A stretch of DNA of 64,000 nucleotides, taken from Natronobacterium gregoryi SP2 (GTDB lineage: Archaea > Halobacteriota > Halobacteria > Halobacteriales > Natrialbaceae). Below, piece after piece: positions 30,272 to 37,800 of this stretch. The stretch lies in contig NC_019792.1 of NCBI RefSeq assembly GCF_000230715.2, positions 3,224,001 through 3,288,000 of the forward strand, read 5' to 3'. The position numbers were made by a program, and so were the translations under genes. The notes beneath the pieces are model-generated. The model worked only from the letters and a program-made list of their open reading frames with translations. It was not told where the DNA came from and did not search any database. How positions within the stretch are numbered: the first letter of the stretch is position 1; every line of letters begins with the position of its first letter.

Positions 30272-30679
30272 ATGGGATTAAAGAACGAAGACCAAGCAGG
30301 TGACCGACTAACGATGAGGAATCGACGGCTCGAACTCGATTCGCTGACCGGAATCCACTGGCTTGCTATCCTCGCGGCGATCGTGAGCGGGCTCGTTCAT
30401 CTGGTGTTGGGGGTCGGATTCCTCCCACACTGGATGGGCGCGCTCTTCTTGCTCGCGGCAGTCGGCTTCGCGGCCGGCATCGGCCTCGTCCTGATCGACT
30501 ATCGACGACGGCTGGTGTACCTGGTGGGGATTCCGTTCGTCGGAGGGCAGGTCGTTCTCTGGTACGCACTGAACCAGCCGTCGAGCATCGGTGATCTGGG
30601 CGTGGCTGAAGTCGTCGACAAACTCGCCCAGGCCGTCCTGATCGTAGCACTCTCCGTCCTCTATCGCTGGGAGCCGTGA
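30272..30679 (+). CDS. Small membrane protein heading a tight operon
   Basis: A 135-residue haloarchaeal membrane protein of unknown function (resembling DUF7475-type proteins). Four hydrophobic segments follow a polar start: IHWLAILAAIVSGLVHLVLG, MGALFLLAAVGFAAGIGLVL, LVYLVGIPFVGGQVVLWYAL and AQAVLIVALSVLYRW. ATG 30272 or the internal ATG 30314 are both possible; the second places the first helix closer to the N-terminus. Its TGA overlaps the GTG of the next gene (GTGA), so translation is coupled. Confidence 0.72.
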   Translation: MGLKNEDQAGDRLTMRNRRLELDSLTGIHWLAILAAIVSGLVHLVLGVGFLPHWMGALFLLAAVGFAAGIGLVLIDYRRRLVYLVGIPFVGGQVVLWYALNQPSSIGDLGVAEVVDKLAQAVLIVALSVLYRWEP

Positions 30680-31485
30680 CCGACCCCGAGCTACGGATCG
30701 GTTCCTGGAAGCGGATCAGCGGCCAACTGGACGTCCAGTTTCGACAGACAGTCACGGCCCGGCTCGAGGCCACCGTTCCGGTCGAACTGGTGCGGCGTGG
30801 ACACCGTCTCCGGCGGTCACTGCTTCCCAGCCGGTACACCGACGCCGACCCGCTGTGTGTCGTCGAAGTGGACCCTCACCGAATCGAACGGAGCATTCTC
30901 GAGACCGCCCCAACCTACCCGCAGTGGGGGCGCGTCGAGGGCGGCGACTGGGACCGTCGATGGGAGCCGTTCGACGACCGGCTCGTCCCCCAGGCGATGA
31001 GACAGCGGTTCGTCGACGGGCAACCCTGGCGGGAGACGCTGTTGCTTGAGGCCTACCGCGAACAGCTCGAACGGTTCGGGAACGCCTGGGAGCATACCTC
31101 GATCGATGGGTTCGACCGTCGGTGTCGAGCGATCGAACGACTCTATACGTCGATCCGTACGGACGGCTACAAACGACAGACGGAGCTGCGCCAGTGGAGC
31201 GGCAGGGAACCGATCGCGACCCGCGTCGACGAGATCAACGTCGACATCGCCCGCGACGGGACGCTGTACTGGCGTGGCTACGGGCAACATCGGCTCGCGA
31301 TCGCCAAACTGCTCGATCTCGAGTCAGTACCGGTCCTGTTGCACCGTCGTCACGCCGGGTGGCAGACGCGCCGGGAGCAAATCAGGGAGTGGCTGGTGGA
31401 CTCGGGCGACGCGGGCGACGAGTTGGCCGTCGATCATCCCGATCTGACCGATCTCGTCGGCGCGAACAGGGGGGAGTCGTCGTGA
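30676..31485 (+). CDS. ParB/sulfiredoxin-like domain protein, unknown function
   Basis: A 269-residue soluble protein with GTG start overlapping the preceding stop and a TGA overlapping the next start, so it is the middle gene of a coupled trio. The C-terminal half contains EINVDIARDGTLYWRG, then GQHRLAIAKLLDL and VPVLLHRRHAGW. This is the pattern of ParB/Srx-like folds, in which a G-x-HR motif binds a nucleotide or phosphate. The N-terminal half is rich in Arg and aromatic residues (YPQWGRVEGGDWDRRWEPF). Family members of this type are often found next to sugar or lipid-head-group genes; the function here is unknown. Confidence 0.65.
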   Translation: MTDPELRIGSWKRISGQLDVQFRQTVTARLEATVPVELVRRGHRLRRSLLPSRYTDADPLCVVEVDPHRIERSILETAPTYPQWGRVEGGDWDRRWEPFDDRLVPQAMRQRFVDGQPWRETLLLEAYREQLERFGNAWEHTSIDGFDRRCRAIERLYTSIRTDGYKRQTELRQWSGREPIATRVDEINVDIARDGTLYWRGYGQHRLAIAKLLDLESVPVLLHRRHAGWQTRREQIREWLVDSGDAGDELAVDHPDLTDLVGANRGESS

Positions 31486-32246
31486 CGGATCGACCGTTCC
31501 GTGCGCCGGCCGCGAGTGTGACTCGCCAGTGGATGATCCTCGCAAGTGCCGTCGCCGTTCTCGCGCTGGTGGCTGGTTCGCCCGTCTACGCGTGGTCTTC
31601 CGGCGCAGGTGGACCGTTCGTCGTCGGGGCCGTCCTCGGATTCGTCGCGGTCGTCGTCGCGTCCTGGCGATCGATCACGCTGGCCCGGCAACGCGTGGGC
31701 GTCGAACCGATCACCCCGGCAACCTGGCTCACCGCCAGCCGGGGTGGAACGCTCGTGATACTCGCCGGGTTTCTTCTGATTGCCCGGCCTCCCGATGCGT
31801 TCGCGTGGGTGCCCGCGACACTGTTCGCGGTCGCCGCCGGTCTGGATGCCGTCGACGGGACACTGGCTCGAGCGACCGACGATGTCTCGGAACTCGGCAG
31901 CCGACTCGACGTCGAAATCGACTCACTGACAGTGCTCGTCGGCACGCTGCTTGCCATCCAGTACGACGTCGTCCCTGTCGCATTTCTCGTCGTCGGGCTC
32001 TCGCGGTACGCGTTCGTCGCCGGAATACGCTACCGGCGATGGGCCGGCCGGCCAGTGTACGACCTCGACCCGAGCACGCCACGGCGCGTTCTCGGGGCGC
32101 TCGCGATGGTGACCATCTGGCTCGCACTCTCGCCGATCCCTGGCCCAGCGCCCACTCGAGTCCTCGCGGTCGTCGTTTTGTTCCCGTTCGTGGCGAACTT
32201 CGCCCGGGACTGGCTGGTCGTCTCCGGTCGGCGTCGCCACACGTAA
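31482..32246 (+). CDS. CDP-alcohol phosphatidyltransferase family protein
   Basis: A 254-residue membrane enzyme that should join a CDP-activated lipid (CDP-archaeol) or CDP-alcohol to an alcohol acceptor. It has about six to seven hydrophobic segments. The catalytic motif D-G-x2-A-R-x8-G-x3-D-x3-D is present as DAVDGTLAR, then ELGSRLDVEID near residues 120-145. The N-terminus (about 60 residues with two helices) is longer than in minimal PgsA-like proteins. GTG 31482 overlaps the previous TGA. The acceptor (glycerol-phosphate, inositol-phosphate, serine or another) cannot be read from the sequence; the linked GT4 and PTPS-like genes give no simple answer. Confidence 0.85.
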   Translation: MTDRPFRAPAASVTRQWMILASAVAVLALVAGSPVYAWSSGAGGPFVVGAVLGFVAVVVASWRSITLARQRVGVEPITPATWLTASRGGTLVILAGFLLIARPPDAFAWVPATLFAVAAGLDAVDGTLARATDDVSELGSRLDVEIDSLTVLVGTLLAIQYDVVPVAFLVVGLSRYAFVAGIRYRRWAGRPVYDLDPSTPRRVLGALAMVTIWLALSPIPGPAPTRVLAVVVLFPFVANFARDWLVVSGRRRHT

Positions 32247-32293
32247 ACTGCCCGTAGCCCACCGTTAAGTGCTCGCGCCCGAAAGGTATCCAC

Positions 32294-32671
32294 ATGTACT
32301 CCGTTTCGGTTTCTCGGTCGTTCGTCGCCCAGCACTACCTGACGGTGCCGAATCCAGGCCCCGAAGGGGAGCTACACTCTCACCAGTTCACCGCCGAAGT
32401 AACGTTCGAGGGGCCCGAACTCGGCGAGTACGGCTACCTCGTCGACATCGACGCGGTCGTCGAAGCGCTCGAAACCGTCGTCGAGACGGTTCGAGATCGG
32501 ACGCTCAACGACCTTCCCGCCTTCGAGAGGAAGAACCCGAGTGCCGAGCGTCTTGCCAAAGTCGTCGGCGATCGGCTGCTCGAGGAACTCGAACCGGAGA
32601 CAGCCACGCGACTCGCGGTGACTGTCCAGGAAGATGACATCGCGTCGGTCACTCACGACCGTTCGCTGTGA
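32294..32671 (+). CDS. 6-pyruvoyltetrahydropterin synthase / QueD-like protein
   Basis: A 125-residue T-fold enzyme acting on dihydroneopterin triphosphate. Zinc ligands are His14 (in SFVAQHYL), His28 and His30 (in LHSH). The catalytic Cys expected four residues before the HxH pair is replaced by Glu24, as in the PTPS-III group, which makes 6-hydroxymethyl-dihydropterin instead of the usual products. The His-Asp/Glu part at the C-terminus is recognisable (VTVQEDD). This favours a role in folate or methanopterin-like cofactor synthesis over queuosine or archaeosine synthesis, but that is inference from one residue. It follows the CDP-alcohol transferase by 47 bases and precedes the GT4 gene by four. 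Confidence 0.82.
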   Translation: MYSVSVSRSFVAQHYLTVPNPGPEGELHSHQFTAEVTFEGPELGEYGYLVDIDAVVEALETVVETVRDRTLNDLPAFERKNPSAERLAKVVGDRLLEELEPETATRLAVTVQEDDIASVTHDRSL

Positions 32672-32675
32672 GTGT

Positions 32676-33749
32676 ATGCACGTCGGCCTGGTCGTCTACG
32701 GCGACCTCGAGGAAACCTCTGGCGGGTTCCGGTATGACAGACGGCTGGTCGAGTCGTTGCGGGCGCGGGGCGACACCGTCGAAGTCGTCTCGCTGCCGTG
32801 GCGCTCGCTCGCACGGGGCGTGTTCGACGGCTGGTCGCGCTCGATCCGGTCACGGCTCGACCGACCGGTGGACGTCTTGCTCCAGGACGAACTCTGTCAC
32901 CCGTCACTGTGGTACCATAACCGCCGGCTCGAGCGACCCGAGGCCGTCGTCGCTTTGATCCACCACCTCCAGTCGGACGATCCCACGACGCGTCGCAACC
33001 GGCTCCACCGGCCGTTCGAGCGACGATATCTCGAGTCGGTCGACGCGACGATCGCCACCAGCGAGTTCACCCGGCAGCGAGCGGCGAAGATCGTCCCGTC
33101 GCTGGCCGACCGGCCGGGGCTGGTCGCATCCCCAGCCGGCCGTGCCGGCGGCGGGGCGGTAACGAAGGGCGACGTCGTCGACCGCGCCCACGACGGTCCG
33201 CTGCGGGTGACGTTCGTGGGCAACGTCGTCCCCAGGAAAGATCCACTGACACTCGTCTCGGCGTTCGCTTCCGAACGGGCCACCGACGACTGGCAGTTGA
33301 CGATCGTCGGTAGCCACGACGACCGCGGCTACGTGAAGCGCGTCCGCGACCGAGTCGCGTCGCTCGGCCTGACCGACCAGGTCACGCTCACGGGGGAGGT
33401 CCCGACGCCGCGACTCGAGTCGATTCTCGAGGGCAGCCACTGTCTCTGCGTTCCCTCGCGGTACGAAGCCTTCGGGATGGTGTATCTCGAGGCGATGGAG
33501 TACGGCGTCGTCCCGATCGCGACCGAAAACGGCGGTCCACGAGAGTTCGTCGACCACGGCACGAGCGGTGTTCTCGTCGATCCCGGCGACAGTCGGGCGA
33601 TCGCAACCGCGCTCGAGCGCCTCGACACCGACCGTGACCGACTTGCCACGCTGGGCGTCAGCGCACTCGAGGGCGCACGCGAGCACCCGACCTGGGACGA
33701 GACGATGCGGTCCGTCAGGTCGTTTCTCCAGCGCGTCGCGACCCCGTAG
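32676..33749 (+). CDS. GT4-family glycosyltransferase
   Basis: A 357-residue GT-B glycosyltransferase using a nucleotide sugar. It starts at ATG 32676, four bases after the PTPS-like gene. The N-domain opens HVGLVVYGDLEETSGGF. The C-domain starts at RVTFVGNVVPRKDPLTLVSA, and the E-x7-E motif lies in EAFGMVYLEAM, followed by GGPREFVDHGTSGVLV. No membrane segment, so it is cytoplasmic. The acceptor could be a lipid made by the nearby CDP-alcohol transferase or a small cofactor such as a pterin; neither is proven. The methyltransferase gene on the other strand begins its last codon right at 33750, leaving no spacer. Confidence 0.88.
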   Translation: MHVGLVVYGDLEETSGGFRYDRRLVESLRARGDTVEVVSLPWRSLARGVFDGWSRSIRSRLDRPVDVLLQDELCHPSLWYHNRRLERPEAVVALIHHLQSDDPTTRRNRLHRPFERRYLESVDATIATSEFTRQRAAKIVPSLADRPGLVASPAGRAGGGAVTKGDVVDRAHDGPLRVTFVGNVVPRKDPLTLVSAFASERATDDWQLTIVGSHDDRGYVKRVRDRVASLGLTDQVTLTGEVPTPRLESILEGSHCLCVPSRYEAFGMVYLEAMEYGVVPIATENGGPREFVDHGTSGVLVDPGDSRAIATALERLDTDRDRLATLGVSALEGAREHPTWDETMRSVRSFLQRVATP

Positions 33750-34664
33750 CTACCCGTCGACACCGAGCAACACGTCCAGTCCGTGGGCAACGTAGACGAG
33801 TTCGCCCGACTCGACCTGTTCTCGCCGGCGAGCGATCCACGACTCGAGGGCGTCGCCGTCGACGGCCGGATCGTCCTCGAGGGCGGTGTGAACGGTCTCG
33901 AGGACGTGCTGGAGGAAGTACGCCTCGTCGGCAGGATACGACCCGTCGTCGGCGGTGACGATCCAGTCGGAGGCTCCCGCCGCGTGGCAGACGTGCTCGT
34001 TGGCGGCGCACTCGAGGAGGCGGCGGCCGGCGTGGGGATCGCCAGGGTTCGCCCGTCGACGCATGTCTTCGTGATAACGGTCGGAGACGTACTCGTCGAA
34101 GCCGGGCACCGCCGTGGGCTGGAAGATCGTCTCGCCGTCGAACGTGATGGGGAAGTAACAGAGACAGCCCGATGGGAGACACGCGAGCAGCGTTTCGACC
34201 TCGACAGGCCGGAAGAGGTCGACGAAGGCCGAGCCGACGACCGCGTCCGGCGCTTCGTCGTCGAGAGCGACGGCCGGTTTTTCGTGGTCGAAGGCAACGG
34301 TCGCATCGGATACCGTACTACGGACCGTGACAGCCCGCTTGTCCCGAGAGAGCGTGAACTCGCCCGTACTGTCGCCCGGTTCGACGTGGTAGTCACGCTC
34401 CTCGGCCCAGGCAGGCAGTCGTTCCCTGGCTGTTGCGATCGCGTCTCCGTCGACGTCGACGAGCGTGTAGGTCACCGTCTCCGGCAACCGCTCCCACTCG
34501 AGTAGTCGCTGGAGCATCGTTCCGATGCCCGCACCGACCTCGACGACGTGATCACCGGCCTCGAGTCGCCGCTCGAACGCTTTGAGGACGGTTCGATCGA
34601 GCGCACGGTCGTCGACGGTGCGTTTCGCGGCGAGGTAGCGTTCCTTCGAGTACGTCCTGGGCAT
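33750..34664 (-). CDS. Class I SAM-dependent methyltransferase
   Basis: A 304-residue methyltransferase. Motif I is VVEVGAGIGTML near residue 40, the acidic loop YTLVDVDGDAIATAR follows, and a charged insert lies before VVGSAFVDLFRP. The substrate is unknown. Homologues often sit beside PTPS-like and GT4 genes in haloarchaea, as far as I recall, which suggests a shared pathway. It is convergent with the GT4 gene, with stops adjacent and no intergenic base, so the pair may influence each other by antisense readthrough. Start ATG 34664 begins MPRTYSKERYLAAKRTV. Confidence 0.82.
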   Translation of the reverse strand: MPRTYSKERYLAAKRTVDDRALDRTVLKAFERRLEAGDHVVEVGAGIGTMLQRLLEWERLPETVTYTLVDVDGDAIATARERLPAWAEERDYHVEPGDSTGEFTLSRDKRAVTVRSTVSDATVAFDHEKPAVALDDEAPDAVVGSAFVDLFRPVEVETLLACLPSGCLCYFPITFDGETIFQPTAVPGFDEYVSDRYHEDMRRRANPGDPHAGRRLLECAANEHVCHAAGASDWIVTADDGSYPADEAYFLQHVLETVHTALEDDPAVDGDALESWIARRREQVESGELVYVAHGLDVLLGVDG

Positions 34665-36016: not shown

Positions 36017-36100
36017 TACTCCACCAAGCGTCGACTGATAAGTGAAACCAGACGACTGCATTCGGTTTCACTCATCCGTTCAGGCTTGCCAAAGCACTAG
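36013..36100 (-). repeat. 88-bp palindromic element, family B, ending in the hcp stop codon
   Basis: Exactly 88 bp between CTAG at 36013 and CTAG at 36097. The stem GATGAGTGAAACC...GGTTTCACTTATC is kept with one mismatch. The outer CTAG contains the TAG stop of the hcp gene (36097-36099). Same A-B tandem order, relative to the neighbouring gene's stop, as at 20686-20857. Confidence 0.85.
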
Positions 36101-37800
36101 TCGCCGACTGCCGTCTGTTCGCCAAACACCGCTTCCCGCCCTCGGTCGATCTCCGAGAGCAGTGCCTCCGTATCGTCCTCGACGGAGCCGATCGGCTTGA
36201 TGTCGAACTCCTCGACCAGCAACTCCGCGACGTTTTCTGAGAGGAACGCCGGAAGGGTCGGACCGAGTCTGATGCCTTCGACGTCCTGGCTCAGGAGGGC
36301 AAGCAGGACGGTGACGGCCTTCTGCTCGTACCAGGCGATATCGTACGCGATCGGGAGATCGTTGACATCCTTGAGGTCCAGTGCGTCCTGAAGCGCCTGG
36401 GCGACGCGCAGCAGCGAGTAGGAGTCGTTACACTGCCCGGCGTCGAGCACGCGCGGAATACCACCGATGTCACCGAGATCGAGCTTGTTGTACCGATACT
36501 TCGCACAACCGGCAGTGAGGATGATGACGTCGTCGGGCAACTGTTTTGCCATCTCGGTGTAGTACTTCCGTTCCGAGTGGCGACCGTCACACCCGGCCAT
36601 GACGACGAATCCGCGTATGTCTCCGTTCTCGATACCGTCGATAATCGCGTCGGCGTGATCCAGAACGGTGTTGCGGGCGAATCCGCCGGAGATCGTTCCC
36701 GATTCGAGTTCTTCCGGCGACTCGAGTTTCGTCGCGTGCTCGATGAGCGGTGAGAAGTCTTTGGGCGCTCCGTTCTCTCGATCCGAGACGTGGTCGACGT
36801 CGGGATAGCGGACGACACCGGTCGTGTAGACCCGCTCGAGGTAGCTATCTTTCGGCGGAACGAGACAGTTCGTCGTCAGTAGTACGGGACCGTTGAACGC
36901 CTCGAACTCCTTGTGTTGTTCCCACCAGGCGTTACCGTAGTTGCCGACGAAGTGATCGTACTCCTTGAGTTCCGGATAGGAGTGTGCCGGCAGCATCTCG
37001 CCGTGCGTGTAGACGTCGACCCCTTCACCGTCGGTTTGCTCGAGGAGTTCTTCCAAGTCTCGCAGGTCGTGACCACTGACGAGAATACCCGGCCGGTTCC
37101 GGACGCCAACATCGACTGCGGTCGGCTCGGGGTGGCCGTAGGTGCTGGTGTTTCCTCTATCTAACAGCTCCATGACCTCGACGCCGACTTCGCCGGCTTC
37201 GTGGACCAGTGCAGTGAGGTCGTCGACGTCCATCTCGTCGTCGAGGGTCGCCGCCAGTCCGCGCTGGACGAACGCGAAGACCTCGTCACGTTTCTCACCT
37301 AATGCGTACGCGTGATCGGCGTAGGCAGCGATTCCTTTCAGTGCGTAGGTCAACAGCTCGCGAAGCGAGCGAACGTCTTCGTCCTCGGTCTCGAGAACAC
37401 CGACGTTGGTGGCGGTTTGCTGGATCGAGTCCGCCTCGGTCGTCGTCCACGTCGCTGCCTCGGGCCAGTCGCTGTCGTCGACGGGGCCGCTTGTGGACTC
37501 GAGGGTTGTTCGAAGCGTTTCCCGTCGTTCGACTGCCGCTTCGATGCGTGTCTCGATGTCGTCGGGATCGAAGTTGACGTTCGAGAGCGTCGTAAAGAGA
37601 TTTTCTGCGATGAATACGGCTGTGTCCTCGTCGAGGCTGTCGGCTTTGCGGACACGCTCGGCGACGAACGCGAGTCCTTTGAGTTGCCGGATCAGCAAGT
37701 CCTGTCGGTTGGCTACGTTCGGCTTTTTGCCACAGGCTCCGACGGTGGTACATCCTTCGTTACCTTTCGCTTCCTGACATTGATAACAGAACATGTCCAT
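36097..37800 (-). CDS. hcp: Hybrid cluster protein (hydroxylamine reductase-type)
   Basis: A 567-residue redox enzyme with a proximal [4Fe-4S] and a hybrid Fe-S-O cluster; family members reduce NO or hydroxylamine and protect against nitrosative stress. N-terminal ligands are Cys5, Cys8, Cys17 and Cys23 (MFCYQCQEA, then CTTVGACGK). Hybrid-cluster ligands are recognisable in NCLVPP, GCDGRHSE, AGCAKYRYN and GQCNDSYS, with the His-Glu helper residues. Translation should use a perfect GGAGGTGA ribosome site six bases before ATG 37800, unusual for haloarchaea. Upstream lie a 38-codon leader frame and a palindromic operator. The gene diverges from the molybdopterin oxidoreductase operon. Its stop codon is in a repeat. 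Confidence 0.95.
   Translation of the reverse strand: MDMFCYQCQEAKGNEGCTTVGACGKKPNVANRQDLLIRQLKGLAFVAERVRKADSLDEDTAVFIAENLFTTLSNVNFDPDDIETRIEAAVERRETLRTTLESTSGPVDDSDWPEAATWTTTEADSIQQTATNVGVLETEDEDVRSLRELLTYALKGIAAYADHAYALGEKRDEVFAFVQRGLAATLDDEMDVDDLTALVHEAGEVGVEVMELLDRGNTSTYGHPEPTAVDVGVRNRPGILVSGHDLRDLEELLEQTDGEGVDVYTHGEMLPAHSYPELKEYDHFVGNYGNAWWEQHKEFEAFNGPVLLTTNCLVPPKDSYLERVYTTGVVRYPDVDHVSDRENGAPKDFSPLIEHATKLESPEELESGTISGGFARNTVLDHADAIIDGIENGDIRGFVVMAGCDGRHSERKYYTEMAKQLPDDVIILTAGCAKYRYNKLDLGDIGGIPRVLDAGQCNDSYSLLRVAQALQDALDLKDVNDLPIAYDIAWYEQKAVTVLLALLSQDVEGIRLGPTLPAFLSENVAELLVEEFDIKPIGSVEDDTEALLSEIDRGREAVFGEQTAVGD

Follow-up and report, generated by a model that had tools for sequence, protein, structure and literature searches.

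A run of six genes in the haloarchaeon Natronobacterium gregoryi SP2 (positions 30272 to 34664 of the window, the 64,000-nucleotide stretch of contig NC_019792.1 that was analyzed here) contains most of a gene cluster that is shared between haloarchaea and actinobacteria. The core of this cluster is composed of an MDR dehydrogenase, a PTPS-fold enzyme, and a GT4 glycosyltransferase; a methyltransferase is usually present, and a CDP-alcohol phosphatidyltransferase is often present. The cluster would represent a T-fold pathway that branches from the riboflavin trunk. The genomes compared show that the genes are linked and co-occur, that the core enzymes are orthologous, that the active site is changed, and that genes of early riboflavin synthesis are linked to the cluster; on these genomic grounds the existence of the branch itself is well supported. 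We infer the product: the branch, which would leave from an early riboflavin pyrimidine in both domains of life, probably leads to a glycosylated, methylated, and possibly lipid-linked pterin-like compound.

The cluster is genuine, and its genes are not neighbors by chance. Sixty haloarchaeal PTPS loci from 10 families were compared, with linkage counted within 8 kb of the PTPS gene. An MDR dehydrogenase is encoded near PTPS in 55 of these loci, its gene ending just upstream of PTPS in 44. A GT4 gene is found near PTPS in 45/60 loci, directly downstream and on the same strand in 44, and a methyltransferase gene in 46, usually co-directional in the relatives and downstream of PTPS and GT4. Homologues of the CDP-alcohol transferase (32/60), of the small membrane protein DUF7475 (28/60, in 7 of the 10 families), and of GTP cyclohydrolase III (22/60, in eight families; PF05165, E 1.5e-86) complete the neighborhood. 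An earlier note on this DNA, made from the letters of the window alone, had proposed conservation of the neighborhood as a check on the cluster, and the genes indeed are not scattered. The same genes are carried by Haloarcula sinaiiensis pHsi388, Natronorubrum bangense plasmid unnamed1, and Haloarcula marismortui pNG700. In pNG700, an unannotated PTPS gene (L197:6001-6324) lies between the MDR and GT4 genes, and the match covers query residues 18-125 only, unlike the full-length copy of Haloarcula sinaiiensis; the pNG700 gene may be broken or simply unannotated.

The MDR dehydrogenase, the conserved partner of PTPS, is not encoded in the window. Among 146 genomes of the order, a PTPS orthologue is present in 82 and an MDR orthologue in 79, all of them PTPS-positive; three genomes have PTPS without MDR, and both are absent from 64 (Fisher P 2e-38, with no correction for phylogeny). 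The two genes lie within 3 kb of each other in 66 of the 79 genomes. In N. gregoryi, the MDR gene is located at G000:C1:252535-253551, ∼785 kb from the cluster on the assumption of a circular chromosome. In a tree of MDR sequences, it groups with relatives of the same family whose MDR gene sits in the cluster, a placement that supports relocation in this genome; some outgroup rows fall among actinobacterial rows on long branches, and no conclusion is drawn from the deeper nodes. The closest NCBIfam model for this dehydrogenase is BchC (TIGR01202, E 3e-21), but the score of 75.7 bits is far under the cut-off of 291, and the partner is therefore not BchC. One orphan PTPS (G134:C1:2721104; L034 / L178), 64% identical to that of the window, has no cluster genes around it, and its genome lacks the MDR orthologue.

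The same core is found in actinobacteria. The closest solved relative of the window PTPS is SCO6650 of Streptomyces coelicolor (PDB 3d7j), and a scan with SCO6650 yields 80 Streptomyces loci, which have the CDP-alcohol transferase, MDR, GT4, methyltransferase, LPG_synthase_TM, creatininase, and GTP cyclohydrolase II around the PTPS gene. The order MDR-PTPS-GT4 is found in 26 of the 30 best actinobacterial loci (from 296 species), and in ∼17 of 21 further actinobacterial neighborhoods a RibD_C reductase is encoded immediately upstream of MDR. Other actinobacteria, outside Streptomyces, have an acyltransferase near the cluster, and in some, FolB is divergent to it. When a Streptomyces MDR is used as the query, the cluster-type MDR is the best match in 7/7 haloarchaea, with any other match reaching only 7e-4; with a Streptomyces GT4, the cluster GT4 ranks first in four of the five genomes tested that have one, and it is the top match in N. 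gregoryi. For the methyltransferases and CDP-alcohol transferases of the two groups, the relationship established is homology. The SCO6650-SCO6655 type cluster has homologues of MDR, PTPS, GT4, methyltransferase, and CDP-alcohol transferase, a creatininase, and a Met-type cyclohydrolase, the last where haloarchaea have GTP cyclohydrolase III. This cyclohydrolase II has Met at the position of Escherichia coli Tyr105 in 68 of 73 Streptomyces copies (automatic read), and in work on SCO6655 a cyclohydrolase with this Met reportedly makes FAPy. FAPy is a formylated pyrimidine that is also the product of archaeal GTP cyclohydrolase III, and it is deformylated by archaeal ArfB, a creatininase-family enzyme.

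Two other Halobacteriota, outside the order, encode GTP cyclohydrolase II beside MDR-PTPS-GT4. In the first (G460, a 1.69 Mb contig), the methyltransferase, GTP cyclohydrolase II, MDR, PTPS, and GT4 genes are consecutive, with a creatininase nearby. In the second (G490:C114), one open frame (L248:1990-3723) encodes a full GTP cyclohydrolase II-MDR fusion and is followed by PTPS and GT4; this contig is short and, as the genome is fragmentary, may come from contamination. The two cyclohydrolases retain the Tyr, and they would be expected to make 2,5-diamino-6-(5-phosphoribosylamino)pyrimidin-4(3H)-one (APy) directly. That one core is accompanied by differing cyclohydrolases and companion enzymes points, by linkage, to FAPy or APy as the entry substrate. 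The earlier note had offered a glycosylated, perhaps methylated pterin as one idea and had proposed dihydroneopterin triphosphate as a substrate for assay of the PTPS-like enzyme. That product family is still the best candidate, but the MDR, GTP cyclohydrolase III/II, creatininase, and RibD_C neighbors, together with the Streptomyces cluster, move the branch point to an early riboflavin pyrimidine; these strongest clues lay outside the window.

The PTPS-fold protein retains the fold of its family and has an altered active site. It matches PF01242 over its whole length (85.7 bits versus a cut-off of 22.4) and conserves the metal-site His motif and the pterin-anchoring residue, Glu113. Glu24 occupies the position of the catalytic Cys, the metal motif is HSH, and RD-LN is found where LDH-LN is expected. 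In an alignment of 61 haloarchaeal cluster members with relatives from Streptomyces and other actinobacteria and with QueD proteins, Glu is found at the catalytic-Cys position in 60/61 haloarchaeal proteins, and Ala is found there in Streptomyces and in 20 of 21 other actinobacterial proteins. Nearly all haloarchaea have HSH as the metal motif, and actinobacteria have HGH or HGA. In place of LDH stands RD or HY/NY, the window protein lacks the Asp-His partners, and the anchoring Glu does not vary among the cluster proteins. The orthologues of Streptomyces (L093-L172) and of loci L195 and L229 have HGA for HGH and so lack the third metal-binding His, a change that points to a different metal site or to none at all.

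These motifs separate the cluster protein from the known classes. The earlier note had recognized the Glu at the catalytic-Cys position and assigned the protein to PTPS-III; the residue is borne out, and the class is not. The PTPS-III signature is ExxHGH (PMC5041015), and in the EGELHSH of the window the Glu is four residues before the His, one too far. QueD (PTPS-I) shares the fold and the Pfam family, but the CxxxHGH motif and the LDH partners are missing from the cluster protein, which scores 40.7 bits against TIGR03367 (cut-off 89). A separate QueD-like gene with the Cys intact and an HGHNY motif is present in this genome (G000:C1:612163-612513), and for both reasons a QueD role is rejected.

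The genes of the run in the window are as follows.

30272-30679, plus strand: DUF7475, a small membrane protein that heads the run (PF24287, E 3.5e-14).
30676-31485, plus strand: a 269-residue protein with no assigned family, overlapping each neighbor by 4 bases.
31482-32246, plus strand: a membrane enzyme of the CDP-alcohol phosphatidyltransferase family (CDP-OH_P_transf; PF01066, E 4e-12).
32294-32671, plus strand: the PTPS-fold (T-fold) protein (PF01242, E 3.1e-24).
32676-33749, plus strand: the GT4 glycosyltransferase (PF00534, E 1.1e-34).
33750-34664, minus strand: a convergent class I S-adenosylmethionine-dependent methyltransferase (weak by Pfam; predicted structure and PDB matches).

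Reading of the sequence bears out the gene calls and junctions of the earlier note: two 4-base GTGA overlaps connect the first three genes, spacers of 47 and 4 bases precede the PTPS and GT4 genes, respectively, and the stop codons of the convergent GT4 and methyltransferase genes abut with no spacer. Pfam assigns four of the six genes (DUF7475, CDP-OH_P_transf, PTPS, and GT4), confirming the CDP-alcohol transferase and GT4 labels given previously. The CDP-alcohol transferase scores 47.2 bits against PF01066 (cut-off 22), and its DxxDGxxARx8GxxxDxxxD motif is intact at DAVDGTLARATDDVSELGSRLDVEID (DAVDGTLAR..G..D..D). The Pfam match of the methyltransferase is weak, and its identity is clear from the predicted structure (pLDDT, predicted local distance difference test, 90), with which a structure search finds class I methyltransferases of the PDB at E ∼2e-11.

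For the 269-residue protein, no Pfam match at E ≤ 0.1 and no PDB relative is found. The ParB-like label that it had been given is unsupported, with no ParB profile even at E ≤ 5, no support from the PDB, and a homologue in just 4/60 loci. Its AlphaFold model (pLDDT 50) is too poor to have been used for fold comparison. A family with a DGNHR motif, ∼200–230 residues long and with no Pfam match, is encoded near MDR/PTPS in 16/60 loci (L066:5002-5697 and 15 others); BLAST detects no similarity between this family and the product of 30676-31485. In 14/60 loci, a fused Gfo/Idh/MocA oxidoreductase-aldo/keto reductase of ∼670 residues is encoded near the cluster (L075:3739-5742 and 13 others), often accompanied by the CDP-alcohol transferase and DUF7475. 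Shortly downstream of the run in the window, 36097-37800 (minus strand) encodes a hybrid-cluster protein/hydroxylamine reductase (PRK05290, 797.7 bits), which is probably unrelated.

In the proposed pathway, the branch point would be APy. Haloarchaea would reach it by GTP cyclohydrolase III and the ArfB deformylase, Streptomyces by a FAPy-forming, Met-type GTP cyclohydrolase II and a creatininase-type deformylase, and other archaea by an ordinary GTP cyclohydrolase II. The PTPS-fold enzyme would bind the 2-amino-4-oxo-pyrimidine, or its first product, through the conserved Glu and close or reshape the second ring by chemistry of the GTP cyclohydrolase I type (Amadori rearrangement and ring closure); the result would be a pterin-like core. 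T-fold GTP cyclohydrolase I closes the rings of such pyrimidines, which makes a pterin the most likely core. MDR would then oxidize a side-chain alcohol, GT4 would add a sugar, the methyltransferase would methylate the product, and the CDP-alcohol transferase would join the conjugate to a (phospho)lipid or polar head group. The pterin and the new glycolipid that the earlier note had offered as separate ideas may be one single lipid-linked product. A bolder version of this proposal, which we hold only tentatively, is that an undescribed archaeal-bacterial pathway passes APy through a repurposed T-fold enzyme to a glycosylated, methylated pterin anchored in membrane lipid; this pterin would be a membrane-bound redox or light-absorbing cofactor of a new class.

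Several observations weigh against the proposed pathway. The sole GTP cyclohydrolase III of N. gregoryi (C1:3381872-3382618) is 125 kb from the cluster, and as this enzyme also serves riboflavin, its linkage elsewhere may be looser than pathway membership. The loss of the catalytic triad of known PTPS enzymes makes the proposed chemistry a guess. Only about half of the loci have a linked CDP-alcohol transferase gene, and GT4 is not beside PTPS in about a quarter, such that glycosylation is perhaps not universal. Finally, the Arf and Rib enzymes fix the pyrimidine stage and leave the final ring system undefined.

This last point bears on the alternative that survives best, a non-pterin product: another glycosylated and methylated compound of diaminopyrimidine or ribityl origin, such as a natural product resembling a nucleoside or a deazaflavin. 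GTP cyclohydrolase II/III, creatininase, and RibD_C define only the pyrimidine stage, and the RibD_C reductase adjoining MDR in some actinobacteria hints at an intermediate of the ribitylamino type. Such a product is conceivable but unlikely, given the pterin-type chemistry for which the PTPS/T-fold family is known and the pterin-anchoring Glu that the cluster proteins all keep. It is improbable that the CDP-alcohol transferase, GT4, DUF7475, and methyltransferase form a new glycolipid pathway to which the role of the PTPS-fold protein is unrelated. CDP-alcohol transferases or membrane proteins do recur in haloarchaea, in Streptomyces (LPG_synthase_TM), and in other actinobacteria (the acyltransferase), but only about half of the haloarchaeal loci have the lipid genes linked, and PTPS is most consistently partnered by MDR and, when lineages are compared, by early riboflavin enzymes.

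More doubtful still is a role in the synthesis of cofactor F420. An unpublished remark ties the PTPS-IV subgroup of COG0720 to F420 (PMC5041015), and in PMC8305020, Haloferax arfA (HVO_1284) is credited to the COG0720 paper. Similar to PTPS-IV, to which it may belong, the cluster PTPS is archaeal, by motif not PTPS-I, II, or III, and apparently arfA-linked; in addition, it is linked to GTP cyclohydrolase III, a source for both riboflavin and F420. In the good-quality genomes of the order (n = 122), however, the FO synthase gene cofG is present in 122/122 genomes and the cluster PTPS in only 69/122, a distribution that contradicts a requirement for F420: the cluster PTPS cannot be needed for the F420 core, and decoration of F420, as opposed to core synthesis, is possible. 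A PTPS-III type enzyme of folate or methanopterin-like pterin synthesis, the function that the earlier note had favored, is very improbable, for although Glu takes the place of QueD's Cys and FolB lies divergent to the cluster in some actinobacteria, the signature fails, the actinobacterial orthologues have Ala, the Asp-His pair is lost, and the haloarchaeal partner genes are not folate genes.

A literature search on SCO6650/SCO6655, halopterins, and haloarchaeal PTPS-glycosyltransferase clusters returned neither an account of the whole cluster nor a report that haloarchaea and Streptomyces have equivalent versions of it, a weak negative in that most subscription papers fall outside its coverage. 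That COG0720 contains subgroups without an explained role has already been published (PMC5041015). The gene set described here is carried by about half of the sampled haloarchaeal species and by many actinobacteria, and its PTPS-fold gene is publicly annotated as QueD, including by NCBI pipelines in haloarchaeal plasmids, a label that the motif excludes. With several non-homologous routes to one early riboflavin pyrimidine lying beside the same MDR, T-fold enzyme, and glycosyltransferase, the entry point of the pathway is testable at once. The cluster offers a path toward a function for SCO6650, a solved structure without an assigned role, and it provides candidate genes for the unexplained pterins of halophilic archaea, phosphohalopterin and sulfohalopterin.

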